In this document: positions 236 through 18,876 of the stretch, one piece after another
Layout of the letters: each line of letters starts with the position of its first letter
Numbering within the stretch: the first letter of the stretch is position 1
Made by a program: the position numbers and the translations under genes
Source: a virus
DNA: 24,637 bases
Reading direction: 5' to 3' (one strand)
IMG/VR virus record: IMGVR_UViG_3300029908_001149
Span: 1-24,637 of that record
Notes under the pieces: generated by a model
The model's input: the letters and a program-made list of their open reading frames with translations, nothing else
Told to the model about the DNA's origin: nothing
Database searches by the model: none

Positions 236-720
236 AAGACGGATTAACTATCGATGAATACGGTAATAAATTCTGGTACAAGAATAATGTTTCTCACCGT
301 GAAGATGGTCCAGCCGGAGAATGGGCTGACGGCGGCTCTAAACACTGGTGTTTAAATGGTAAATACCACCGCGAAGATGGTCCAGCTATCGAATGGGCTA
401 ACGGAACTAAAGAATGGTATTTAAACGACAAACTTCACCGCGAAGACGGTCCAGCTGTCGAACGGGGTGACAATGGTAACAAAGAATGGCGTCAATACGA
501 TAAATTACATCGCAAGGACGGTCCAGCCATTGAACGTTACGATGGTTCTAACTTCTGGTACTTAGAAGGCAAACTTCATCGCGAAGACGGTCCCGCTATA
601 GAGTATTCTAATGGTGAAAAAGTATGGTCCCTTCACGGTGAAGAAGTTACCGAAGAAGAATTCAATCAACTTCAACGTACTAAACAATTCAACGACAATA
701 TCAATGAGGCCTTGAAATGA
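232..720 (+). CDS. HREDGPA-repeat protein (five repeats, conserved C-terminal tail)
   Basis: A 162-residue protein made almost wholly of five tandem 23-24-residue repeats, each starting HR(E/K)DGPA, followed by an acidic or aromatic stretch and a W-Y-L type beta strand. The last 25 residues are the shared tail module (TEEEF ... QFNDNINEALK). There is no signal peptide or membrane segment, so it is probably a soluble cytoplasmic protein. The start ATG overlaps the upstream stop by 4 nt and is preceded by GAGG at 7 nt. Its own TGA overlaps the start of the IscA-like gene in the same way. Similarity to MORN_2/YwqK-type repeats is recognised by eye; the function is unknown. Confidence 0.9.
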   Translation: MKDGLTIDEYGNKFWYKNNVSHREDGPAGEWADGGSKHWCLNGKYHREDGPAIEWANGTKEWYLNDKLHREDGPAVERGDNGNKEWRQYDKLHRKDGPAIERYDGSNFWYLEGKLHREDGPAIEYSNGEKVWSLHGEEVTEEEFNQLQRTKQFNDNINEALK

Positions 721-1034
721 TCTATTTCACAGAAACAGCTGGAAATAAAATAGCTAGTATGATATTCGAGGGATACTGTCTAAGGATGTCCATGATCGGT
801 GGTGGATGCTCAGGAATGAATTATCAAATGGCAATAGTACCAGATGAAGATTTCGGGCTTGAAGATTTCACTTTAGAGTTTATTGATAGCTTTAAACTAG
901 TCGTTGATTACAAAAGTCTGGAATTCCTACAAGGAACAACTGTAGATTTCTCTGACGGCTTAAATGGACACGGTTTTAGTTATTCAAATCCAAACGCTAA
1001 ACGAACTTGCGGCTGTGGTAAGAGCGCCTGCTAG
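717..1034 (+). CDS. IscA/ErpA-type (HesB family) iron-sulfur cluster carrier
   Basis: A 105-residue protein, the usual length for A-type Fe-S carriers. The family's cysteine pattern is present: C31 in GGGCSGMNY and C98-G-C100 within NPNAKRTCGCGKS near the C-terminus. In the family these bind a 2Fe-2S or 4Fe-4S cluster and pass it to apo-enzymes. An additional C105 is the last residue. The gene follows a repeat protein with an ATGA overlap, so it is co-translated with it. Its stop TAG (1032-1034) directly abuts the stop of the convergent aminotransferase gene with no spacer. In a phage it may mature a phage Fe-S enzyme or support the host Fe-S supply during infection. The client is not in this window. 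Confidence 0.9.
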   Translation: MIYFTETAGNKIASMIFEGYCLRMSMIGGGCSGMNYQMAIVPDEDFGLEDFTLEFIDSFKLVVDYKSLEFLQGTTVDFSDGLNGHGFSYSNPNAKRTCGCGKSAC

Positions 1035-2018
1035 TTATAGATTCTTTCTCAATCTGTAGATAAGTTCTTCGAATTCCTTATCAGAGCAAGCTAAATTCAA
1101 CCGCCTACAAGATTCATCACCACCAAATTGAGTTCCACTACTACCTAAGATGTCCATCTCAAGTAATCTTTCCTCTAGATTTTCGCCTTTAATATAAGCA
1201 AACATACCGTTTTTAGCAATAGATTGGATATCTGTGTCAAAGAAAACAGAATCTAATTGATTGCGGCGTTCTGTTAATACTTTATTGCCAAATTCAAAGC
1301 AAGATTCGATTCCAGCTGGCAGATCTAATAGATATTGAATAACTTTAGCAGCTTTGTTTTGAGAATCCTTACTTACGCCTGATGTTTGATGTTCTACGAA
1401 AAAAGCCATATTAGCTGCTATGATAGGATCTTTGACTAAAGCCCAACCTATACGAGTTCCAGCGTGTCCAGTAGCTTTAGATAAGCTGAATACCATTATA
1501 TCTTCGTCAAATTCCATTACCTCATTAACGTAAGTAGGCCAATTATAACATAAATCAAATATCTTAGCCGAGTTAATGGACACTGGTCTAACTTCACAAT
1601 TTCCATCTGGATTCCCTGGAATTGTAATGAGTTCCACTAATTCTGAATCCTTGGAGCTAATATTGTCTATATCTGTATTTTTCAATCCGCAAGTTGATAG
1701 ATCTACAAAATGGGGGAATTTATGGAAATGTGGTGGCTCAAAATATATCCTACTATGAGTTTTACCCATTGCATACATAGCGGCTTGTAGGATTTGAGTT
1801 GCGCCATTGCCGACTACCAATCTAGTATCTGAAGTAATTTTGGCATTGCCTATTTTCCTATGTAGTTCTTTAATTGGCTCAATCAATGAAGCTGTTATAG
1901 CTGACTTTGGATACGACATGAATTCACCGGAAGAGAAGGTGATGTCGAAACGATTTACCCAATAAGCTTCTAGGAATGTGGGATTCCCAATTCTTAGATC
2001 GAGTAGAGTGTTTTTCAT
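1035..2018 (-). CDS. PLP-dependent aminotransferase, alliinase / tryptophan aminotransferase (TAA1)-like
   Basis: A 327-residue fold-type I PLP enzyme. Visible signatures are: N-terminal GNPTFLEAYW (like the GDPxxxExYW of alliinase/TAA1); the phosphate loop GNGATQ (70-75); IPGNPDG with N136; DLCYNWP with D155 and Y158; the PLP lysine K181 in SLSKATGHAGTRIGW, with R189; and the C-terminal carboxylate-binding region CRRLNL (304-309). The S-K-x-T-G-H-A-G-x-R-x-G-W block is characteristic of the alliinase C-terminal/TAA1 family, which includes C-S lyases and L-Trp or other amino acid:pyruvate transaminases. The EGF-like N-terminal domain of plant alliinase is absent. The start overlaps the upstream 48-aa gene (ATGA). 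The substrate is unknown. Family confidence is high; transaminase versus lyase cannot be decided. Confidence 0.85.
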   Translation of the reverse strand: MKNTLLDLRIGNPTFLEAYWVNRFDITFSSGEFMSYPKSAITASLIEPIKELHRKIGNAKITSDTRLVVGNGATQILQAAMYAMGKTHSRIYFEPPHFHKFPHFVDLSTCGLKNTDIDNISSKDSELVELITIPGNPDGNCEVRPVSINSAKIFDLCYNWPTYVNEVMEFDEDIMVFSLSKATGHAGTRIGWALVKDPIIAANMAFFVEHQTSGVSKDSQNKAAKVIQYLLDLPAGIESCFEFGNKVLTERRNQLDSVFFDTDIQSIAKNGMFAYIKGENLEERLLEMDILGSSGTQFGGDESCRRLNLACSDKEFEELIYRLRKNL

Positions 2019-2161
2019 TTTAGAGCTTCCTCAATTGATTGATTGAACTGTTTATTTCTTAAATATTGAACATATTCTGCTTCGGAATATAAAACGTCAT
2101 CTACTTTAGTATAGCCTAATTCATGACATTTTCTCATTACATCGCCAATTGCTGTTAGCAT
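2015..2161 (-). CDS. 48-aa protein carrying the shared C-terminal tail module
   Basis: A short gene whose 48-residue product begins MLTAIGDVMRKCHELG and ends YSEAEYVQYLRNKQFNQSIEEALK (given here in parts: YSEAEYVQYLR, NKQFNQSIEEALK). That is the same tail that ends the HREDGPA-repeat proteins, but here with no HREDGPA repeat. AGAGGA lies 9 nt upstream of the ATG, a good ribosome binding site. The TGA overlaps the aminotransferase ATG (ATGA), and GAGG in the Glu-Glu codons is available as its Shine-Dalgarno. Only 4 nt separate it from the upstream repeat-protein gene. It shows that the tail is an independent module. Function unknown. Confidence 0.75.
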   Translation of the reverse strand: MLTAIGDVMRKCHELGYTKVDDVLYSEAEYVQYLRNKQFNQSIEEALK

Positions 2162-2165
2162 AAAT

Positions 2166-2393
2166 TTATTCCTCTAGAATTTTGCTCATGTTCTCGTTGA
2201 ACTGTTTAGTACGTTGATATTGTTTGAATTCTTCTTCGGTGTAAGGATAGCCGTTTACCCACCAGAATGTCTCACCATCGGGAAACTCTACCGCTGGACC
2301 ATCTTCGCGGTGAAGTTCGCCGTTTAAGTACCAGGTTCTAACGTCGTGTTCATCAATATGAAGTCCGTTTTCGGTGAAAAAGCTTTCTTTCAT
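2166..2393 (-). CDS. HREDGPA-repeat protein (single repeat)
   Basis: A 75-residue protein with one HREDGPAVEF repeat flanked by W-Y-L-N-G and W-W-V-N-G strands, then a divergent tail (TEEEFKQYQRTKQFNENM...ILEE). It is the first gene of a minus-strand operon running into the 48-aa protein and the PLP enzyme. The bases just before its ATG (ATTGAGGCTCTAAA) read as I-E-A-L-K-stop in frame, exactly like the coding tail that precedes other genes here, although no gene lies upstream; the stretch keeps the GAGG Shine-Dalgarno. A consensus-like promoter sits about 18-46 nt upstream. Function unknown. Confidence 0.85.
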   Translation of the reverse strand: MKESFFTENGLHIDEHDVRTWYLNGELHREDGPAVEFPDGETFWWVNGYPYTEEEFKQYQRTKQFNENMSKILEE

Positions 2394-2407
2394 TTTAGAG
2401 CCTCAAT

Positions 2408-2451
2408 TATACTATATCACACTTTAGGTCTCAGGTCAATGATATAGTATA
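2408..2451. repeat. 12-bp perfect inverted repeat spanning a divergent promoter region
   Basis: TATACTATATCA (2408-2419) is mirrored exactly by TGATATAGTATA (2440-2451) across a 20-bp centre. Each arm contains an extended -10 (TGATATAGT) for the gene on its own side, the repeat protein on the minus strand and the M15 peptidase on the plus strand. It could be a binding site for a regulator or simply two back-to-back copies of the phage's preferred promoter element. Confidence 0.6.
2411..2439 (-). promoter_or_regulatory. sigma70-type promoter for the 2393-1035 operon
   Basis: On the minus strand, TTGACC (2434-2439) is followed by a 17-bp spacer and TATAGT (2411-2416), preceded by TG one base upstream (extended -10). 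The predicted transcription start is near 2404. That leaves only about 10 nt of leader, with the GAGG ribosome binding site right at the 5' end. Confidence 0.65.
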
Positions 2452-2461
2452 GAGAGGTTCT

Positions 2462-2905
2462 ATGATTAATTGGGAAGATGAAAAATGTATGGTTAGTTCC
2501 TTTTTTAGCGTACGCGAATGTTTGTGGCTTCCAACATGGGGACGCATGGCCACAGAAGCCGACGGGTTAACAGATGAGATAAAAGCTAATCTAGTAGCTT
2601 TATGTAATAAAATGGATCAAGTTAGAGCTTGGTTTGGACAATCTGTTAATGTTCACGTTACTTATAGGCCATTGAAGTATAATCAAGAGATAGGAGGAGC
2701 TCTTCATTCAATGCACTCAGTCGGTTCCGCGATGGACTTCAACATAGTCTCAGTAGACTGTGATACAGCCAGGAAAATGATTATGGACTCTAGCATGTTA
2801 GTCGCATGGGACATGCGCATGGAGGACAATCCGCCCGGTAGTCATTGGGTCCATTTAGATTGCAAAGAGGTGCCCGCTGGCGGACATAGGTACTTTATTC
2901 CTTGA
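2462..2905 (+). CDS. M15 family (M15A-like) zinc peptidase, probable endolysin
   Basis: A 147-residue protein with the M15/VanY-type signature S-x-H-x-x-G-x-A-x-D (S83, H85, G88, A90, D92) and the downstream W-V-H-L-D (H131). H85, D92 and H131 would bind zinc. Family members cut peptide bonds in peptidoglycan stems as D-Ala-D-Ala carboxypeptidases or L,D/D,D-endopeptidases, and many phage endolysins have this domain alone at this size. There is no signal peptide, so export would need a holin-type partner. TYRP-type sequence at 67-70 fits the arginine region of the family. Its 3' end overlaps the convergent gene by 11 bp. A plus-strand extended -10 (TGATATAGT, 2440-2448) lies just upstream. 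Confidence 0.85.
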   Translation: MINWEDEKCMVSSFFSVRECLWLPTWGRMATEADGLTDEIKANLVALCNKMDQVRAWFGQSVNVHVTYRPLKYNQEIGGALHSMHSVGSAMDFNIVSVDCDTARKMIMDSSMLVAWDMRMEDNPPGSHWVHLDCKEVPAGGHRYFIP

Positions 2906-3326
2906 CAGACAATACTTCGTAGCCCAATAAGTCTTCGAGATCTTCATCAGTCATTGGTGAGTATTTAAAATATGTACTGCTTACGAATTCTTTAGTATTA
3001 CCGGATGAGGTTCGATATCCACCGTGCTCGTTTGGTCCTATGAGGGTGAGAAATTCTCCATACAGAGGTTCGTCAGTTACTTTGCTCAAATCTCGCCCTT
3101 TAGGACGTGGTATGATAAACTTAGCATTTTCTTTATCTATAAAGATCTTCATGTTAAAAATGGAATCCATTGTACATATCTGCTCTACTGATATCCGAGT
3201 AGTTTCGTGGATAACTTCTAATTCCTTGCTATCGCCATGGGATAGAGCTAAGTTAGAGGTTTTCTCAACTATAAAAAGTTCACTACCATCAGCATAGGAT
3301 ACTTTAAATAACTTCATTTCTTCCAT
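2895..3326 (-). CDS. hypothetical protein (143 aa)
   Basis: I do not recognise this protein. It is predicted soluble, mixed alpha/beta, with an acidic C-terminus (TDEDLEDLLGYEVLSVKE) and no signal peptide or membrane segment. AAGGGA about 8 nt upstream supports the start at 3326; an internal ATG three codons later, preceded by GGAAGAA, is an alternative. It is convergent with the M15 peptidase and overlaps its last 11 bp, so the two stops interlock and no terminator separates them. It lies downstream of the zinc-ribbon gene on the same strand with a 45-bp gap. Confidence 0.7.
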   Translation of the reverse strand: MEEMKLFKVSYADGSELFIVEKTSNLALSHGDSKELEVIHETTRISVEQICTMDSIFNMKIFIDKENAKFIIPRPKGRDLSKVTDEPLYGEFLTLIGPNEHGGYRTSSGNTKEFVSSTYFKYSPMTDEDLEDLLGYEVLSVKE

Positions 3327-3371
3327 ATGTCAGTCCCTTCTAATAGTCTTTTAATCATTAACAGTTCCATA

Positions 3372-6454: not shown

Positions 6455-7363
6455 ATGCATTACACTGAGACTGAACTAGCAAAGCTAATTCAAAGTGTGG
6501 AAGCGGAATTCACCGCCCACCTCGCTAAGGCTGAGGAACACTTTGAACCTGAGCATAAAGATGCTAAAGAAGAACCTAAGCATCATGAAGAGCACAAAAA
6601 AGCTCATCATGAAGAAAAGGAATCTGAAGAGCATAAAGAAAGCCCAGAGCATGACTATGATGATGAAGACATGGAACATATGCATAAAATGTATATGAGC
6701 ATGCATAAAGGTGAGATCCACGCTCACCATCACGCTTTAAAGAAAGCCATGGAACACCATGGACTTACTTGCCATGATCTCGAAGAAGAAAAAGAGCATC
6801 ACGGCAAAGAAGAAGCTGAAGAAGAACATCATCACGGCAAAGAAGAAGCTGAAGAAGAACATCATCACGGCAAAGAAGAAGAAGAAACTAAGGCGCACCA
6901 CGAGAAGAAAGAAGCTATCAAAGGTGCTTTAAAAGAACCAAAAGAGATGGAGAAGGTTGAAAAACCGACCGAACTCAAGCCTCATGATAAACATGAAATC
7001 TCCCACAAAGAGTTGCATGAAAAGTCTAAGGATATTGGTTCCGAGCCTGAAATTCAAAAGTCTGAAATCGCAGCCCTTAAAGCTGAAAGAGATGGACTTA
7101 AGAAGAACTTGGATGTAATAACTGAATGGTTAAAGGGACAAGCTTCCAAGGCAGCCCCTCAAAGTAAGGCCATTACTCGATTGGATTCTATCACCAAAAG
7201 TGAAGAAACTAAAGAAGTAGCTACCTTATCCAAAACAGAAATTACGACCATATTAACCAAAAAATCTTCAGAACCAAGTTTATCGAAGTCTGATAGAGAA
7301 TTAATCAACGCTTACTACCTTGACGGTGCAAGCTTAACAAGTATCAGTCACTTACTCAAGTAA
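6455..7363 (+). CDS. His/Glu/Lys-rich protein, probable capsid scaffold
   Basis: A 302-residue, extremely charged protein directly upstream of the capsid gene, the usual place for a scaffolding protein. Residues about 30-165 are His/Glu/Lys-rich with three tandem copies of an 11-residue unit (HHHGKEEAEEE). Residues about 195-230 look like a coiled coil (KSEIAALKAERDGLKKNLD), and the last 25 form a short helical domain (DRELINAYYLDGASL...HLLK) resembling the compact capsid-binding end of scaffolds. AAGGAG lies 8 nt before the ATG. The His density could bind metal ions or make the protein pH-sensitive; that is inference. It does not carry the AGSxNxAP motif shared by protease and capsid. Confidence 0.6.
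   Translation: MHYTETELAKLIQSVEAEFTAHLAKAEEHFEPEHKDAKEEPKHHEEHKKAHHEEKESEEHKESPEHDYDDEDMEHMHKMYMSMHKGEIHAHHHALKKAMEHHGLTCHDLEEEKEHHGKEEAEEEHHHGKEEAEEEHHHGKEEEETKAHHEKKEAIKGALKEPKEMEKVEKPTELKPHDKHEISHKELHEKSKDIGSEPEIQKSEIAALKAERDGLKKNLDVITEWLKGQASKAAPQSKAITRLDSITKSEETKEVATLSKTEITTILTKKSSEPSLSKSDRELINAYYLDGASLTSISHLLK
6794..6889 (+). repeat. 33-bp tandem repeat inside the scaffold gene (about 2.9 copies)
   Basis: Unit boundaries at 6794, 6827 and 6860; each 33-bp unit encodes (E/H)HHGKEEAEEE. The first two copies are almost identical in bases and the third diverges after GKEE. The length keeps the frame, so copy number can vary without breaking the protein. Confidence 0.85.
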
Positions 7364-10438: not shown

Positions 10439-10467
10439 AGGATAACATAAAAGCTAAATTTTGTCAA
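10439..10467 (-). promoter_or_regulatory. sigma70-type promoter for the homing endonuclease
   Basis: On the minus strand, TTGACA (10462-10467), 17-bp spacer, TATCCT (10439-10444). A perfect -35 and optimal spacing suggest recognition by the host's housekeeping polymerase, so probable early expression. Confidence 0.7.
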
Positions 10468-10517: not shown

Positions 10518-10829
10518 TCATGTCTTATCTTTCTTCAACTCTTCCTCAATCATATCCACTATAGCCTTGGCAGCTTCATCATCTATGTTTTTGACTGAAT
10601 CTATATAACCAGCACTAAACATTATCAAAGTGGCCATTCCGCCTATGAAACCAAAGGCTTCTGATTGAACCAGCCACATATTAGCGCCGATTACTACCGC
10701 TGTACCTATAAGGATATTTCTCAAATAATGACTACTGGCCACTTGTATCGCCCTATCACGGGCCACGAGTACTGGTTCGACTAACTCTTTTGGTAGAGTT
10801 ACTTTTAATTCTTCTAAGTTCTTTTTCAT
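10518..10829 (-). CDS. small two-helix membrane protein
   Basis: A 103-residue protein, last gene of the eight-gene minus-strand operon. Two adjacent hydrophobic segments are visible (about 39-55, NILIGTAVVIGANMWLV; about 60-77, FGFIGGMATLIMFSAGY) between a charged amphipathic N-terminus and an acidic/basic C-terminal helix ending EEELKKDKT. The size and two-helix hairpin would suit a class II holin, but the long N-terminal helix and the absence of an adjacent endolysin make that only one possibility. The start overlaps the upstream stop as ATGA. Confidence 0.7.
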   Translation of the reverse strand: MKKNLEELKVTLPKELVEPVLVARDRAIQVASSHYLRNILIGTAVVIGANMWLVQSEAFGFIGGMATLIMFSAGYIDSVKNIDDEAAKAIVDMIEEELKKDKT

Positions 10830-11047
10830 ATTTTAATAGACCTTTCTTTAGCTCTAATTGCAATATCTAATTCAACTAATGCTTCGAATAATGAAGTATC
10901 AGAGAAATCCATTATATAATATATTAATGCCGGATCTTCTCCGATCTGGATTTTATAATAAGCCGGATCTTCCTTGCTAGGGGTTATACTCACTAATCCT
11001 CTGCGATCATCGCCTAAGTAAAATATCCTTTGAAGTACACTGATCAT
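10826..11047 (-). CDS. hypothetical protein (73 aa), start revised
   Basis: Unrecognised small soluble protein (MISVLQRIFYLGDDRR...KERSIKI). I place the start at the ATG at 11047 because AGGAG lies exactly 5 nt before it. The longer reading from 11074 has no ribosome binding site and would overlap the upstream gene. Its stop overlaps the start of the membrane protein gene (ATGA). It belongs to the SbmA-like operon; function unknown. Confidence 0.7.
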   Translation of the reverse strand: MISVLQRIFYLGDDRRGLVSITPSKEDPAYYKIQIGEDPALIYYIMDFSDTSLFEALVELDIAIRAKERSIKI

Positions 11048-11055
11048 ATTATCTC

Positions 11056-11262
11056 CTAATATCCATTCATGCAAGCGGCATATTGGTTATAAATGCCGAC
11101 TTGTTGTTCTTGAGTTATAAAGCCACCTTGAGCATAATACGTACGGTTAATGCTATCTTTATAGATGTAATAACATTGAGAAGTCGAATATCCGCGACTA
11201 TACGAAACCGCGCAAGCGCTGGTAAACGTTAATAAAACTGCTGCTAACATAAATTTATACAT
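11056..11262 (-). CDS. predicted small exported protein, possible lipoprotein
   Basis: A 68-residue product (start at 11262, AGGAG 5 nt upstream) opening with a signal-like segment, a Lys then AAVLLTFTSAC. Cys17 sits where a lipobox cysteine would be, but position -3 is Thr rather than Leu, so lipidation is uncertain and a signal peptidase I site is possible. The mature part is Tyr/Gln-rich with two more cysteines (C29 and C63) that could form a disulfide in the periplasm. The longer reading from 11289 would bury the signal. A Rz1-like spanin lipoprotein is conceivable, but the mature part is not Pro-rich. Role unknown. Confidence 0.65.
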   Translation of the reverse strand: MYKFMLAAVLLTFTSACAVSYSRGYSTSQCYYIYKDSINRTYYAQGGFITQEQQVGIYNQYAACMNGY

Positions 11263-11270
11263 ATGTGCTC

Positions 11271-11477
11271 CTAGTATCTTTTGTGCCACTGAGGTCTTTG
11301 ATGCAAGTATTTTGCAGCTTCAAGATCAGAGGCGGTTTGTTTTAACGTAGTAAGAACTTCATTTAACGATTCTTCATCTAGATCTAAGCTATTGATTTTC
11401 TTTATCATTGTATCAATATCTTTTTCCATATCTGATATTTGTAGTTGAAGTGTCTTTAAGAATTTATCTAATGCCAT
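11271..11477 (-). CDS. small coiled-coil protein
   Basis: A 68-residue, almost fully helical, heptad-like protein (FLKTLQLQISDMEKDIDTM...) with a basic, aromatic C-terminal end (HQRPQWHKRY). No known family. The ATG shares one base with the stop of the SbmA-like gene (TAATG), and GGAG is 9 nt upstream inside that gene, so it is translationally coupled to it. A partner or regulator of the transporter is a reasonable guess from coupling only. Confidence 0.7.
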   Translation of the reverse strand: MALDKFLKTLQLQISDMEKDIDTMIKKINSLDLDEESLNEVLTTLKQTASDLEAAKYLHQRPQWHKRY

Positions 11478-12367
11478 TATTTTGTCTCCATTTCGACTAT
11501 GCGATTAATCACTGATTCCAGTTTTGAAATATCATCCTGCTTCTCGATAATGAGTTCTGAACATTCAATAATGACTTTCATGGCATCTGCAGTCGCAAAA
11601 AGAACACCCAAAGAAAGAGTCCCAAAGAAATATTGCCTAGCCAGAAGCAAATGCGGGAATACTACTGCCGCTTGTAAATAGCCCGACTGAAAGAAACCTA
11701 ATTTCTTGGCTCGAATCATTAAAGCGGACCAGTTCTGTTTAACATCATCTAAGACTGGTGCTTTAGTGAAACTTTTATCCCAAGTAAGTATCTTTTGTCT
11801 TAGAGTTGATTCTCTGCTTTCTTGTTCATAGGAAAGTTGAACTAACGGTTGAGCGATCCATTTTGCAATTCGGCTGCCAACAATTACCCATATGGCTATT
11901 GGTAATAAAAACCAAGGACTAGCTGTGGAGACTAATAGGTATATGAAAATAGGTAAGGTAATAAAAGCGTTGATACAAGCTGTAGCCAAAGTCAAGGTCA
12001 TCGTTGTAAGTTCTTCTAAATCCATGGTCAATCGTTGCTCGTTAGTTCCCGTCTCATTTAAGACTCCAGAAGTAAGCTTTAAATACAAAGCCTCACGCCA
12101 AATGAACGATAGGCCTCTTTTAAAGTACGAATTATAACCTTTGCTCAAAACCCAAGCTGCTGCCATGGCGGAAAAGAAGGCTATGGCCTCTAAAAAGTGT
12201 TGGAAGTTGTGTTGTTGGAAAGAATCCATGAACATACGTCTAAATTGATTTAGACCGACCGTGAGAGCTACCATCGATAACTCAGTTAACAGAATTGCCA
12301 TCAGAAGCTTATAGCTGCCTTTGGCATTATAACACATCTTTAATAGCTTGAATAAATTCTTAAGCAT
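11477..12367 (-). CDS. SbmA/BacA-like ABC-transporter transmembrane protein lacking an ATPase
   Basis: A 296-residue polytopic membrane protein. Six likely membrane segments lie at about 20-40, 57-78, 124-147, 151-171, 224-247 and 252-275. Family marks of SbmA/BacA and ABC_membrane_2 proteins are visible: IWRE (89-92) after helix 2; NEQRLTMDLEE (109-119, like NPDQRIxEDI); the cytosolic stretch PLVQLSYEQESRESTLR (174-190); and AVVFPHLLLARQYFFGTLSLG (given as AVVFPHLLLARQ and YFFGTLSLG, 234-254). It ends with ISKLESVINRIVEM, where the transmembrane domain of relatives ends, and no nucleotide-binding domain follows in any frame. SbmA/BacA import peptides and some antibiotics using the proton gradient. 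An ATPase-less half transporter or dominant-negative partner of a host ABC protein is the alternative. Confidence 0.75.
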   Translation of the reverse strand: MLKNLFKLLKMCYNAKGSYKLLMAILLTELSMVALTVGLNQFRRMFMDSFQQHNFQHFLEAIAFFSAMAAAWVLSKGYNSYFKRGLSFIWREALYLKLTSGVLNETGTNEQRLTMDLEELTTMTLTLATACINAFITLPIFIYLLVSTASPWFLLPIAIWVIVGSRIAKWIAQPLVQLSYEQESRESTLRQKILTWDKSFTKAPVLDDVKQNWSALMIRAKKLGFFQSGYLQAAVVFPHLLLARQYFFGTLSLGVLFATADAMKVIIECSELIIEKQDDISKLESVINRIVEMETK

Positions 12368-12584
12368 AATGTCCTAACCATTCGTAAACTTCATACAAGA
12401 ACAGAAAGAATCCTATAAGGAAAAGGGTATTAAAAGTTAAGCTTATAATTAGACTAGCGGCCTTTTTATCTCTACTTAAAGCGCGTCTGACTTCATTTTT
12501 TATCTCTAAAGCGATTGCAAATATTGGAGCTAGAACTAAGACGGTGATGGACAATAGTCCAATTATGTTAAATACTTTATACAT
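12360..12584 (-). CDS. small two-helix membrane protein
   Basis: A 74-residue protein with two hydrophobic helices (about 7-27, IIGLLSITVLVLAPIFAIAL; about 44-65, LIISLTFNTLFLIGFFLFLY) joined by a basic loop (EVRRALSRDKKA). AAAGG lies 6 nt upstream. It overlaps the start of the SbmA-like gene by 8 bp and carries that gene's Shine-Dalgarno (AGGA), which argues for joint function in the inner membrane. No family recognised; holin-like topology is possible. Confidence 0.7.
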   Translation of the reverse strand: MYKVFNIIGLLSITVLVLAPIFAIALEIKNEVRRALSRDKKAASLIISLTFNTLFLIGFFLFLYEVYEWLGHYA

Positions 12585-12826
12585 AACTTACCTTTCTGGT
12601 AATAGTATTCTACTTTTCTAGTCAAAGGAGCATTATCTTCAGGTTCCCAACCTTCTTTGATCTCTTCAGTTAAATAGTAGAAATAAGGACCTGGTATAAT
12701 TTTACCATTGGCAGTCAAAGAATCCACTAGATGCCTAGCGGCTAACATAGCAGTTGTGTCAGACAGTACAGGAGTCGTCTTTTTAAGTTCTTCGGCTTTC
12801 TTTATGATAATCACAGACTTTTTCAT
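12563..12826 (-). CDS. hypothetical protein (87 aa)
   Basis: Unrecognised soluble protein with a basic N-terminal helix and a Tyr-rich end (VEYYYQKGKLCIKYLT). It overlaps the next membrane-protein gene by 22 bp and shares one base with the previous stop (TAATG), so it sits firmly in the same operon. AAGGA about 11 nt before the ATG is a distant but usable ribosome binding site. Confidence 0.65.
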   Translation of the reverse strand: MKKSVIIIKKAEELKKTTPVLSDTTAMLAARHLVDSLTANGKIIPGPYFYYLTEEIKEGWEPEDNAPLTRKVEYYYQKGKLCIKYLT

Positions 12827-13017
12827 TAGCTACTAATTCCTTCGTCTGGAATAACTAATAAACGAGCTTCTACTAATTCATTAGTATCAGGGCGTATTAC
12901 ATTCCCTAATATCAAATACTTATAAGCCTGTATTTCTGGCATCACTTTACGAGCTTCAGTTAGGGTAATTGTAAAGTTCTTGATATTAATTTCTAGTGGG
13001 ATATCTCCATTTTCCAT
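12826..13017 (-). CDS. hypothetical protein (63 aa), first gene of the SbmA-like operon
   Basis: A 63-residue soluble protein, no recognised family. It lies about 30 nt downstream of the predicted start of a near-consensus promoter. The ribosome binding site is weak (AGAAAG), and a GGGATC-TAT-GATCCC palindrome immediately upstream could fold in the leader RNA or bind a repressor, so expression of the whole operon may be tuned here. Confidence 0.65.
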   Translation of the reverse strand: MENGDIPLEINIKNFTITLTEARKVMPEIQAYKYLILGNVIRPDTNELVEARLLVIPDEGISS

Positions 13018-13031
13018 GACAACTACTTTCT

Positions 13032-13082
13032 GGGATCTATGATCCCTGGTATAAGTATACCATAGGTAAAATAGGTTGTCAA
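13032..13082 (-). promoter_or_regulatory. promoter with two palindromes controlling the SbmA-like operon
   Basis: On the minus strand, TTGACA (13077-13082), 17-bp spacer, TATACT (13054-13059): both hexamers near-perfect. The -10 lies inside a palindrome GGTATA-AG-TATACC (13048-13061), followed downstream by GGGATC-TAT-GATCCC (13032-13046). Repression by a protein binding over the -10 or leader is the likely logic; no regulator gene is identified. Confidence 0.7.
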
Positions 13083-13085
13083 ATC

Positions 13086-13331
13086 CTATTCATCAGTGGA
13101 TTCGATGACCGTGTCGTCTTCGACGTTATCTAACGAGTTTTCTATGTTTCTATTAAAAATGATGGTTCGCATTTTAGTTTTATGTTCATTTTCAGTATAT
13201 TCAACGCCATAGAGGTACCATTTACGATTCCCTTTAACATATTCTATAGCAGGGCCTTCTTCACGATGAAGTTTGCCATTTAAGTACCAGAATACATTGC
13301 CGTTAGAATTGTAAACCGGACCATTTCTCAC
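13086..13331 (-). CDS. HREDGPA-type repeat protein (GTG start, divergent tail)
   Basis: An 81-residue protein with one HREEGPAIEY repeat between two W-Y-L-(N/Y)-G strands, then a diverged tail (TENEH...FNRNIENSLDN) extended by an acidic end. The GTG start overlaps the preceding TGA (GTGA), with GAGG upstream supplied by the previous gene's Glu-Ala codons. It is the last gene of the phosphoesterase operon. The decayed tail agrees with no gene following closely on this strand. Confidence 0.8.
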   Translation of the reverse strand: MRNGPVYNSNGNVFWYLNGKLHREEGPAIEYVKGNRKWYLYGVEYTENEHKTKMRTIIFNRNIENSLDNVEDDTVIESTDE

Positions 13332-13531
13332 TTAAGAGCCTCATTGATATTGTCGTTGAATTGTCTATTGCGTTGAAGTTGTCTGATTTCTAGTTCGGTT
13401 AATGCTATACCATTTAAGTACCAGCGTTTATCACCGTCATTCCATTCGATAGCTGGACCATCTTCACGATGAAGTTTGCCGTTTAAGTACCAGCGTTTAG
13501 AGCCCGATTCGGTATGTAGACCGTTTTTCAT
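13328..13531 (-). CDS. HREDGPA-repeat protein (single repeat)
   Basis: A 67-residue protein: MKNGL start, W-Y-L-N-G-K-L, one HREDGPAIEW repeat, W-Y-L-N-G, then the full tail (TELEIRQLQR, NRQFNDNINEALK). The start overlaps the upstream stop by 4 nt with GGAG as Shine-Dalgarno, and its own tail supplies GAGG to the GTG of the next gene. It is closely related in sequence to the tail proteins at 16575-16790 and 232-720, implying duplication within this genome. Confidence 0.85.
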   Translation of the reverse strand: MKNGLHTESGSKRWYLNGKLHREDGPAIEWNDGDKRWYLNGIALTELEIRQLQRNRQFNDNINEALK

Positions 13532-14475: not shown

Positions 14476-14510
14476 TGATATAGTATATCATACGTACAAG
14501 CGTTTGTCTA
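14476..14510 (-). promoter_or_regulatory. promoter of the phosphoesterase operon, overlapping a 15-bp palindrome
   Basis: On the minus strand, TAGACA (14505-14510), 17-bp spacer, TATACT (14482-14487) with TG one base upstream. The -10 lies in the palindrome TGATATAGTATATCA (14476-14490), which also forms an extended -10 on the plus strand, towards the ice-binding gene. The predicted leader is only about a dozen bases, with GGAG at its very 5' end. Confidence 0.65.
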
Positions 14511-14572
14511 TCCCAATCTTATGGATAGCGAACACGCGATAATTTACTTTGATCTTTCAAGGAGATCCTATC

Positions 14573-16501
14573 ATGGCCATTTCTAAATTCGATAATGATT
14601 ATTTTATCAATGCTTTAACTAGCCAAGCAGCCGGGTTGGAGTTGATTAGCGCTCTTGAAAATGGATCGGTTTTATCAACATTCACTTTAGATAGACTAAT
14701 CATAGCTTTAGGTAGTCAACAAGCTGCTTTAAATCTACAAGCCGCTATGATCAACAAGGGAATTCTTTCAGCAGAAGATATTCAATATATGAGCCAAGGC
14801 TTTGCTAATGCTCAAGTAGCTCAAGACGCCGTAGCAGCAATCGCATCTTCAAACGCAGTATCTAACGCTATAACTGCTCCATCTTTAGTAGGAATGCCAA
14901 TAACTTACGGATTAGAAGTGGCAAATTCCGGAGTTACACAAGCTCAAATAGTAAGTTTAAGCGCTCCAGCAGGAAGTTCTTTCCCTACAACTGGAACAGC
15001 CGGATACGTTGAACTGTACAACGGCGGAGACGCTAATAAGTATTATGTATGGTATAGCGTTCTAGGTGGCAGCGTAGTTGATCCAGCTCCAGCCGGGTTC
15101 ACTGGTATCGAAGTCATTATAAACGCCAGTGATACTGCTGCAGCTGTCGCTACAAAGACTCTGACAGCGATTGCTGCTGGAACCGTAGCTTTATCTACAT
15201 CCGTTTCCGGATCAGTAGTCAGCATTACTGCAACTGTAGTTTTAGTCGCTACTCCTACTTTCTCTTTACCAGCTGGAACTTATTCTGGGACACAATTTGT
15301 AACCCTTTCTTGCTCTACAGCCGGTGCGTCAATGTTCTATACATTGGATGGATCCTCTCCTACGATTTCAAGTACACCTTACGTAACAGCGATCTCGGTT
15401 GGCGCTAGCGAAACTATTAAGGTATTAGCTACCAAATCAGGTCTAGCTAATTCCGCAATCGCAAGTGCAGCTTACGTGATTACTGGATCAGCAGGTGTCG
15501 CTACTCACTTAGTGTTTTCAACACAACCTTCAGCAGGTGTAGCTGGAGTCGCTTTTCCTACTCAACCTATCGTAACCATTAAAGATGCTTCAGGCGCAAC
15601 AGTAACGACTGGTGCAGATGCTACTGCTTCTATTACTCTATCACTTCTTTCAGGAACCGGAGTTCTATCCGGTACAGTAACCATGGCTGCTGTTGCGGGT
15701 GTAGCTGACTTCGTAGGTAAAGGGGTTAAGATAAACTTATACGGTAATAAAACTTTATTAGCAACTAAAGCTGACACTACCGGCGGCGGCGGGACAGTCT
15801 CGTTCACAATCGCTAGCGATACTTTTAATATCGCTAACAGTTTAGCAACCGTTGACCTAGGAACATCTGCTAACTATAAGATCTTAGCTGAGTCTGGCAT
15901 TTCCACAACAGCTGGATCTTTTATCACTGGCGCTATTGCAGTAAGCCCTATAGCTTCAACGGCAATAACCGGTTTCGGTCTAATATTAGATGGAAGTGGA
16001 ACCTTCTCTACCTCTTCATTAGTAAGCGGACATGTATTCGCAGCAGATTACGCTTCTCCTACTCCAGCGACTTTGACTACAGCAATAAGTGACATGGGAA
16101 CAGCCTATACGGACGCGGCTGGCCGACCAACTCCTGATTTTACAAATCTAGGTTCTGGTAATCTTGGCGGATTAACATTAACTCCTGGTCTATACAAATG
16201 GACAAGTGGCGTAACGATTCCAACTAACGTGACAATTTCCGGTGGACCAAACGATATTTTCATATTCCAAATCGCCGGTACATTAGTAATGTCAGCTTCC
16301 ACCAGTATCATTCTAAGTGGTGGAGTAGTTGCTTCCAATATCTTCTGGCAAGTTGCCGGAGCTGTAACCATTGGAGCAAATGCTGTATTTAGTGGTATTG
16401 TATTAGCGCAAACAAGCGTCGCTTTAGTAACCAGTGCTTCTTTAAGCGGACGTATCTTAGCTCAAACAGCTGCTACCTTACAAAGTAACGCTATAACCTA
16501 A
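14573..16501 (+). CDS. modular virion-type protein with C-terminal DUF3494 ice-binding domain
   Basis: A 642-residue protein; the start is ATG 14573 because AAGGAG lies 8 nt upstream (an upstream in-frame TTG is discarded). Parts: a helical N-terminus (1-125); a beta region typical of phage fibre/tail proteins (about 130-225, GYVELYNGGDANKYYVWY); a chitobiase-C-terminal/FN3-like domain (about 228-305, VTLSCSTAGASMFYTLDGSSP); an Ig-like domain (about 309-420); and a DUF3494 ice-binding domain (about 424-642). The last is recognised by DLGTSANYKILAESGIS, ITGAIAVSPIASTAITGF, ADYASPTP, AYTDAAGR, LTPGLYKW, NDIFIFQIAGTL, NIFWQVAG and GRILAQTAATL. DUF3494 folds into a beta-solenoid that binds ice in polar bacteria, algae and fungi. 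There is no signal peptide, so placement on the virion is likelier than secretion. A terminator follows. Confidence 0.85.
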   Translation: MAISKFDNDYFINALTSQAAGLELISALENGSVLSTFTLDRLIIALGSQQAALNLQAAMINKGILSAEDIQYMSQGFANAQVAQDAVAAIASSNAVSNAITAPSLVGMPITYGLEVANSGVTQAQIVSLSAPAGSSFPTTGTAGYVELYNGGDANKYYVWYSVLGGSVVDPAPAGFTGIEVIINASDTAAAVATKTLTAIAAGTVALSTSVSGSVVSITATVVLVATPTFSLPAGTYSGTQFVTLSCSTAGASMFYTLDGSSPTISSTPYVTAISVGASETIKVLATKSGLANSAIASAAYVITGSAGVATHLVFSTQPSAGVAGVAFPTQPIVTIKDASGATVTTGADATASITLSLLSGTGVLSGTVTMAAVAGVADFVGKGVKINLYGNKTLLATKADTTGGGGTVSFTIASDTFNIANSLATVDLGTSANYKILAESGISTTAGSFITGAIAVSPIASTAITGFGLILDGSGTFSTSSLVSGHVFAADYASPTPATLTTAISDMGTAYTDAAGRPTPDFTNLGSGNLGGLTLTPGLYKWTSGVTIPTNVTISGGPNDIFIFQIAGTLVMSASTSIILSGGVVASNIFWQVAGAVTIGANAVFSGIVLAQTSVALVTSASLSGRILAQTAATLQSNAIT

Positions 16502-16521: not shown

Positions 16522-16581
16522 GGCGGACGCTCCGCCACTCTCCATTGGGGGCTGACTTAAAACGTCGGCCCTAATTATTTT
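16522..16581 (+). terminator. double hairpin terminator after the ice-binding gene
   Basis: GGCGGA-CGC-TCCGCC (16522-16536) is followed by a longer hairpin, GGGCTGAC (16549-16556) and GTCGGCCC (16564-16571) with one G-T pair and a 7-nt loop, then TAATTATTTT. It lies between convergent genes and partly reaches into the end of the minus-strand gene. Confidence 0.65.
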
Positions 16582-16790
16582 AAAGCCTCATTGATATTGT
16601 CGTTGAACTGTCTATTACGTTGATATTGTTTGAATTCTAGTTCGGTTAATTCTTTGTTATTTAAATACCATACTTTATATTCTGCAATACGCACTTCTTG
16701 GGACCCCATGAAGACTCCCGAATAGTAGTGCACTGTCTTGATATGCTCGCCATTGAGAGGTTTATTATCTTTGTCTATATTATTTCTCAT
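16575..16790 (-). CDS. 71-aa tail-module protein (repeat family without HREDGPA)
   Basis: It keeps the W-Y-L-N-N strand and the full tail (TELEFKQYQR, NRQFNDNINEALK) of the repeat family, but the N-terminal half has no HREDGPA motif. ATG overlaps the thymidylate kinase stop, with GAGG from the kinase's last codons as Shine-Dalgarno. Here the tail ends in TAA instead of TGA and no start codon overlaps, in line with there being no following gene on this strand. The peptide tail is nevertheless intact, so it is kept for more than coupling. Function unknown. Confidence 0.8.
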   Translation of the reverse strand: MRNNIDKDNKPLNGEHIKTVHYYSGVFMGSQEVRIAEYKVWYLNNKELTELEFKQYQRNRQFNDNINEALK

Positions 16791-18332: not shown

Positions 18333-18357
18333 TACGTCAAGTTCTTTGGAGGTTACC

Positions 18358-18876
18358 TTGAGACTTTCGGCACAAGTAATACAAATTTTTAACACTGTTA
18401 ACTCCTATGTTATTGGTAATCAATGGTCGGTTCAAGCCGGGAATCCGAATACCCTTTATTTTCAACTAGTTGATTTAGACCAGCAAGTTGCGGGCTCTTT
18501 GATTCAAAATCCAGGTGCTCAGATTTTTGGGTTATTCAACACTTCTTCTTTAGCTCCTATAAGCCCCCCTTTGCGTTATGTCCTTGGAGCTACTTCTGGC
18601 TTAACACCCTATTCGGTATCAGTAACTTTTCCTAGTATTGACGATGCTAAAGTAGTAACTATTGCTTGTACTCAAGCTAGTCCGTCAGATGCTTCGATTT
18701 GGCAATTTAACATTCCAAATACTATTACACCTATGTCTGGCGATGTTCAATTTAGCGTAACACAAGGCTCAATGACTTGGACTTTCTCGGTTTTACAAAT
18801 GATCGCAGTATCTTATACGAATGACGGTTCAGACGGTACTTTGCCAAATAACTTTACGTACTACTTTTTTGACTAA
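18358..18876 (+). CDS. putative virion structural protein (172 aa), TTG start
   Basis: A beta-rich, low-charge protein (MRLSAQVIQIFNTV...) without recognised domain; composition (Thr, Ser, Gln, aromatic residues, few Lys) is typical of phage structural proteins. The start is the TTG at 18358, 5 nt after a full GGAGG; the longer reading from 18346 would place the Shine-Dalgarno inside the gene. It begins the plus-strand run leading into the connector-like protein, 60 bp downstream. A tail or neck component is inferred from location. Confidence 0.6.
   Translation: MRLSAQVIQIFNTVNSYVIGNQWSVQAGNPNTLYFQLVDLDQQVAGSLIQNPGAQIFGLFNTSSLAPISPPLRYVLGATSGLTPYSVSVTFPSIDDAKVVTIACTQASPSDASIWQFNIPNTITPMSGDVQFSVTQGSMTWTFSVLQMIAVSYTNDGSDGTLPNNFTYYFFD

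Follow-up and report, generated by a model that had tools for sequence, protein, structure and literature searches.

A phage gene on the minus strand at 11477..12367 of the window (the whole 24,637-nucleotide stretch of DNA analyzed here, IMG/VR record IMGVR_UViG_3300029908_001149) encodes a 296-residue transmembrane domain (TMD) of the SbmA/BacA–YddA/BclA superfamily that carries no nucleotide-binding domain (NBD). The protein is best characterized as a TMD without NBD or coupling helices, being either a stem relative of the SbmA-like proteins or a second, independent case of ATPase loss, and it appears to form an ATP-free side branch of the transporter family in its own right. Our confidence is evenly balanced that this bare TMD, devoid of the ATPase and of both coupling loops, acts as an ATP-independent conduit for peptides or similar compounds across the host inner membrane during infection. 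To our knowledge, it would be the first ATP-free ABC-derived transporter found in a phage.

An intact transporter domain without an ATPase

The reading frame (12367 to 11477) starts with ATG, contains zero internal stops, and ends in a clean stop. An identical protein is encoded on a 56.3-kb contig of the same phage, whose DNA is ~99.97% identical over the shared stretch, and a third contig of 10.7 kb encodes a transporter that is identical over the 102 residues covered. The few SNPs between assemblies all lie outside the transporter gene, and the known copies of the protein are near-identical ones only.

The preliminary description presented this frame as a SbmA/BacA-like peptide transporter on the strength of its membrane segments, several short motifs and a clean C-terminal end. 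The intact frame, the motifs and the clean end are all present, but the motifs do not single out SbmA/BacA, since the corresponding positions (W90 R91, Q111 R112, D116, E186, R190, Q232, G254 and R289) are equally conserved in NBD-fused YddA-type transporters. What holds is the assignment to the wider superfamily of an ATPase-less, phage-encoded TMD. The Pfam profile SbmA_BacA matches residues 23–295 on profile positions 13–312 with 56.4 bits (4.3e-15, cut-off 24), and ABC_membrane_2 is likewise above its cut-off (54.0 bits, 2.2e-14); where the best match might have been an unrelated membrane family, these two families and the SbmA fold were found instead. Two NCBIfam equivalogs score far under their cut-offs, PRK12369 ‘putative transporter’ with 69.8 of 385 bits and SbmA with 25.3 of 492 bits. 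The only solved structures reached by sequence search with the phage protein are those of SbmA (3e-4).

As described earlier, no NBD stands behind the transporter gene, which is directly followed by the gene for a 68-residue coiled coil. The PF00005 profile detected no NBD in the 24.6-kb window, in the 56.3-kb contig or in the 10.7-kb contig, so that the earlier expectation of no ATPase elsewhere in the genome holds for the ~59 kb covered, about a third of a genome that measures ~145–171 kb in relatives. The ABC ATPase of one related phage (G013) was dismissed as a candidate partner, as it has its own NitT/TauT-like permease in a genome without the TMD. A NitT/TauT-like ABC importer was observed at 560-3358 of the related phage contig IMGVR_UViG_3300049216_000317 (L105, 164.5 kb), where a BPD_transp_1 permease and an ATPase are encoded by overlapping genes that adjoin those for an OmpA-domain protein and a Haem_oxygenas_2/DUF3865 protein.

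Position within the superfamily

The closest sequence relatives are the TMDs of NBD-fused YddA/BclA-type ABC transporters from Bradyrhizobium, Rhodopseudomonas, Herbaspirillum and others, at 26–31% identity. By length, the 80 top-ranking loci in the genome scan with the phage protein are all of the NBD-fused kind. Among 299 genomes of a single phylum, matches stronger than 1e-7 all fall in open frames of at least 566 residues, the size of a TMD plus NBD, and frames of SbmA size (323–474 residues) match at 1e-7 or weaker with 21–27% identity. On average, the phage protein shares 26% identity with 104 YddA-side TMDs and 19.5% with those of 28 SbmA proteins. As SbmA and YddA also share a mean identity of 26%, the phage protein is about as distant from YddA as SbmA is.

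Two phylogenetic trees place SbmA/BacA in a clade with 100/100 support that excludes the phage protein. Attachment of the phage protein to the SLiPT stem is not rejected (p-AU 0.57), and the second tree puts it on that stem with 86/80 support, where long branches meet. The phage branch is very long, at 4.5–5.2 changes per column, and its placement relative to the SbmA stem and the YddA grade is unstable. Its diagnostic columns, taken at 60%, are similarly divided, with 13 YddA-like, 9 SbmA-like and 36 that are neither. Of 30 columns conserved throughout the superfamily, 19 are kept and 11 are changed, including P244 to R. A 2026 study of SLiPT evolution proposed that a YddA-like ABC transporter gave rise to SbmA when the NBD and the coupling helices were lost (PMC13316013). 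Judged by its place outside the clade and by the glutamate ladder described below, the phage protein is not a true SbmA/BacA, and the more specific part of the preliminary description, membership in SbmA/BacA proper, gives way to a sequence nearer to YddA/BclA.

Shortened coupling loops and predicted structure

In type IV ABC transporters, the coupling helices sit in two intracellular loops, and both are shortened in the phage protein. We counted loop spans between well-anchored conserved columns. Loop 1, at the place of coupling helix 1 (W90 to D116; 12020..12100, minus strand), and loop 2, at the place of coupling helix 2 (E186 to N212; 11732..11812, minus strand), each span 26 residues. The corresponding spans are 28 and 32 residues in 28/28 SbmA proteins and 37–48 and 38–40 residues in 104/104 proteins of the YddA side. 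As a control, we used L126, a YddA-type TMD from the Rhodopseudomonas genome G020, encoded in a 383-residue frame that is too short for a fused NBD; it is possibly a split or orphan half-transporter. This cellular protein keeps full-length loops (38/38), so the shortening does not follow automatically from the absence of an NBD. A TMD without a fused NBD is also known in yddA_3 of Rhizobium tibeticum (PMC13316013).

The loop between TM1 and TM2 is YddA-like, with 18 residues, versus 25 in SbmA. The peripheral TM0a and TM0b helices of SbmA are absent from both the sequence and the model of the phage protein, which has no N-terminal extension; in their stead, the model places a helix at residues 2–13 (12329..12364, minus strand), in the position of the ABC-type elbow. 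Two members of the SbmA clade (L138, with a 344-residue frame, and L146, with a 323-residue frame) are also without the N-terminal TM0 part, and TM0 is therefore not universal in SLiPTs.

The AlphaFold2 model, built from 62 relatives, has a pLDDT of 89.1 and a pTM of 0.80; its alignment is of the YddA type and may bias the model toward YddA. The short N-terminal helix is followed by long transmembrane helices that are joined on the cytoplasmic side by a four-residue turn (103–106) and an eight-residue loop (195–202). Pfam, the model and structure comparison all recover the six-helix core of a type IV TMD. A Foldseek search of the PDB ranked SbmA structures at the top (2.7e-8, TMq 0.81), followed by ABCD3 and Rv1819c, among others. 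VIA-align gave a near tie, with Z scores of 23.6 for SbmA, 22.5 for PCAT1 and 22.4 for Rv1819c. Judging from the model, the TMD fold is secure, and it does not settle the choice between the SbmA and YddA branches. Rv1819c of Mycobacterium tuberculosis (PDB 6TQE), which aligns over 296/296 residues, shares the type IV TMD fold but is a full ABC transporter with an NBD. SbmA/BacA (SLiPT; PDB 7P34 and 9G3D-9G3G) resembles the phage protein in its fold, in having no NBD and in having no coupling-helix segments, but differs in clade, in sequence (19–20% identity), in TM0, in the ladder and in the TM1–TM2 loop. Conversely, YddA/BclA proteins resemble it in sequence, in the elbow-like N-terminal helix and in the TM1–TM2 loop, but differ in having a fused NBD and long intracellular loops.

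Loss of the glutamate ladder

We set SbmA numbering by the positions given in PMC13316013 and followed the six glutamates of the SbmA ladder into the phage protein. E193 corresponds to M115, E203 to L125, E269 to Ser, E276 to E186, E287 to D197 and E378 to K282. Five of the six are thus lost, one of them replaced by Asp, and only E186 is retained as Glu. E186 is no evidence for a ladder, since the E276 position is Glu universally in YddA too, and the Leu at the E203 position is the usual residue in YddA.

Other charges lie on the last transmembrane helix. Column composition and helical-wheel arithmetic, both from sequence, predict a stripe on TM6 formed by K264, E268, E271 and E275 (11543..11578, minus strand); assuming a regular helix, these residues share a 60-degree arc that faces the same azimuth as SbmA E378. 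The phage Glu at column 271 is Ser in 102/104 YddA-side proteins and Gln in 28/28 SbmA proteins; acids are common in YddA at 268 (38%) and 275 (32%). We hypothesize from these columns that the TM6 stripe may stand in for the SbmA ladder. A tentative evolutionary reading follows the same lines: the protein could be a stem ‘missing link’, or a second independent instance, in the conversion of an ABC-exporter-type TMD into an ATP-free transporter, with the NBD and coupling loops gone, with neither TM0 nor the ladder, and with the TM6 stripe possibly in place of the latter.

The operon and its phage

The transporter gene is the fourth of eight genes on the minus strand that run from 13017 to 10518, with neighbors overlapping by 1–22 nt. 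Upstream of it lie gene 1 (12826..13017, 63 residues, soluble), gene 2 (12563..12826, 87 residues, soluble) and gene 3 (12360..12584, 74 residues, two membrane segments), which overlaps the transporter gene by 8 nt. Downstream, the coiled-coil gene 5 (11271..11477) is followed by gene 6 (11056..11289, 77 residues), whose product is probably a lipoprotein, judging by an N-terminal hydrophobic segment and a lipobox-like TSAC found by eye. The operon closes with gene 7 (10826..11074, 82 residues, soluble) and gene 8 (10518..10829, 103 residues, two membrane segments), all on the minus strand. Matches of two of these neighbors in PADLOC (2TM effector, 9e-4; LmuB, 3e-4) are very weak and were judged compositional.

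A perfect TTGACA-17-TATACT promoter-like site (13054..13082, minus strand) lies 36 nt upstream of gene 1. With at most two mismatches, 13 such sites occur in the window versus 3.8 expected, and as many were found in 0/100 shuffles. Three such sites on the minus strand (10439-10467, 13054-13082 and 14482-14510) stand directly upstream of three consecutive accessory operons. The GC content of the transporter gene (0.387) and its GC3 match the rest of the phage (0.39), unlike the genera of its cellular relatives, which are mostly GC-rich; the gene is thus not a recent graft, or it has been ameliorated.

The phage's major capsid protein shares 54% identity with its counterpart in Myxococcus phage Mx1, a 169.6-kb phage with a contractile tail (PMC10720576), and 52–81% with the counterparts on a dozen IMG/VR contigs, which reach 171 kb in length. 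A myxobacterium or some other Gram-negative species is the inferred host. Between the capsid gene and the following structural gene (corresponding to 18346-18876), the relatives have a varying set of accessory genes, which encode a calcineurin-like phosphoesterase, an ice-binding-like protein, a thymidylate kinase and a homing endonuclease. The transporter operon is absent from this stretch in the 12 related phage contigs compared, no SbmA/YddA-type TMD was found in 12 relative records searched whole, and none of the eight operon genes occurs in four near-complete relatives. Genes 3 and 8, scanned in IMG/VR, were found only in this phage.

Several other genes of the window deserve mention. A 650-residue protein (14549-16501, plus strand) that adjoins the capsid region has a complete ice-binding domain at its C-terminus (PF11999, 7.8e-69) as well as a CHB_HEX_C repeat; it has counterparts in related phages (L091-L094), and only its CHB_HEX part matched among 50,697 phage genomes. 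Unusual phage cargo is found at 1035-2018 (minus strand), an enzyme of the alliinase/aminotransferase fold (PF04864, 7e-57), beside an A-type iron-sulphur carrier (PF01521; 717-1034, plus strand). The gene before the major capsid gene, in scaffold position (6455-7363, plus strand), encodes repeated His/Glu-rich stretches (HHGKEEAEEE, three times). A family of short genes (1-720, 2166-2393, 13086-13531 and 16575-16790) shares ‘WYLNGKLHREDGPA’ repeats and a common C-terminal tail (RQFNDNINEALK); these genes stand at the ends of several accessory gene groups, one reaches Pfam DUF6745, and the DNA of the copies at 13332 and 16579 is 83% alike.

Function during infection

In the conduit model introduced above, the transporter would be expressed during infection from the operon's own promoter, and its product would insert into the host inner membrane and form a homodimer. 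The homodimer would work as an ATP-independent, alternating-access conduit for peptides or peptide-like compounds, with passage either passive or powered by an ion or proton gradient, and with E186, D197 and the TM6 stripe as candidate charges instead of the SbmA ladder. The outcome would be an altered handling of peptides or antibiotics, or an altered envelope state, in the infected cell. SbmA demonstrates that this fold is able to transport without ATP (PMC13316013). SbmA-type proton-driven peptide import, as put forward in the preliminary description, is not transferable from homology, and the function may have shifted, given the 11 changed conserved columns and the very long branch.

Four other explanations were weighed. 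The fold could have been co-opted for an envelope function other than transport, such as superinfection exclusion or support of the neighboring small membrane proteins and lipoprotein. The operon content, with two two-helix membrane proteins and a probable lipoprotein, agrees with such a role, as does the location in an accessory hotspot that varies between related phages, typical of host-interaction genes. However, the whole TMD is retained, including many fold-wide conserved positions, no match to known exclusion proteins was found, and PADLOC gave very weak signals for two neighbors, so we regard this role as unlikely. Quite unlikely, too, is a dominant-negative subunit that would pair with a YddA/BclA or SbmA half-transporter of the host and block it. 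Members of the superfamily function as dimers (PMC13316013), and a poison subunit would be expected to lack coupling loops as this TMD does, but the 26–31% identity to the cellular relatives found makes a conserved dimer interface doubtful.

An ordinary ABC transporter, with this protein as its membrane half and an ATPase provided in trans by the host or by the remainder of the phage genome, is improbable. The protein's closest relatives are NBD-fused, bacteria have split YddA operons (PMC13316013), the NBD search spans about a third of the genome, and one related phage does have an ABC ATPase, albeit with its own permease and without the TMD. Against this, no NBD was found in the three contigs, the next gene encodes a coiled coil, and both coupling-helix loops, shortened as in SbmA, are shorter than even those of SbmA, which makes an ordinary split transporter unlikely. 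A true SbmA/BacA taken from a host, which would use the glutamate ladder for proton-coupled peptide import, is very improbable: the Pfam and structural matches, the missing NBD and coupling loops and the stem placement speak for it, but the clade and the ladder, as read from the sequence, largely rule it out, together with the missing TM0, the SbmA equivalog score and the lower mean identity to SbmA than to YddA.

The origin of gradient-driven, SbmA-like transporters from ATP-driven ABC transporters is still to be explained (PMC13316013). A naturally occurring protein without the ATPase, the coupling helices, the ladder and TM0 is a direct test object for that origin: either other charges serve transport, or the fold owes its ATP independence to something other than the ladder. 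If the conduit is functional, some phages alter peptide traffic at the inner membrane of their host during infection.

Occurrence in other viruses

Literature searches turned up no phage-encoded SbmA or peptide transporters, and a 2025 survey of SbmA/BacA and BclA does not mention phages (PMC12003926). A tblastn search of 50,697 phage genomes gave no match at 0.01, with a sole, meaningless match at E = 7, and a single-sequence scan of the genome contigs with the phage protein gave no match. PHROG 11436 was discarded as a short family motif, as it covers residues 157–193 only and also matches ordinary bacteria. Scans of IMG/VR with the mixed and the YddA-first alignments returned, beyond this phage, three contigs with YddA-type frames of 561–634 residues, the length of a TMD plus NBD; two contain a Walker A motif and the third an ABC-signature-like motif. 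These contigs have host-like neighbors (TadE-like, sulfatase, TonB-type) and were taken as host DNA rather than as phage cases.

A structure search of viral proteins revealed full ABC transporters of giant viruses and of one myovirus. In addition, an uncharacterised 291-residue protein of Catovirus CTV1 (BFVD A0A1V0SBY5) matches the model over its full length (TM 0.69/0.70, E 0.003) and, on this predicted structure, is perhaps another virus-borne TMD without an ATPase.
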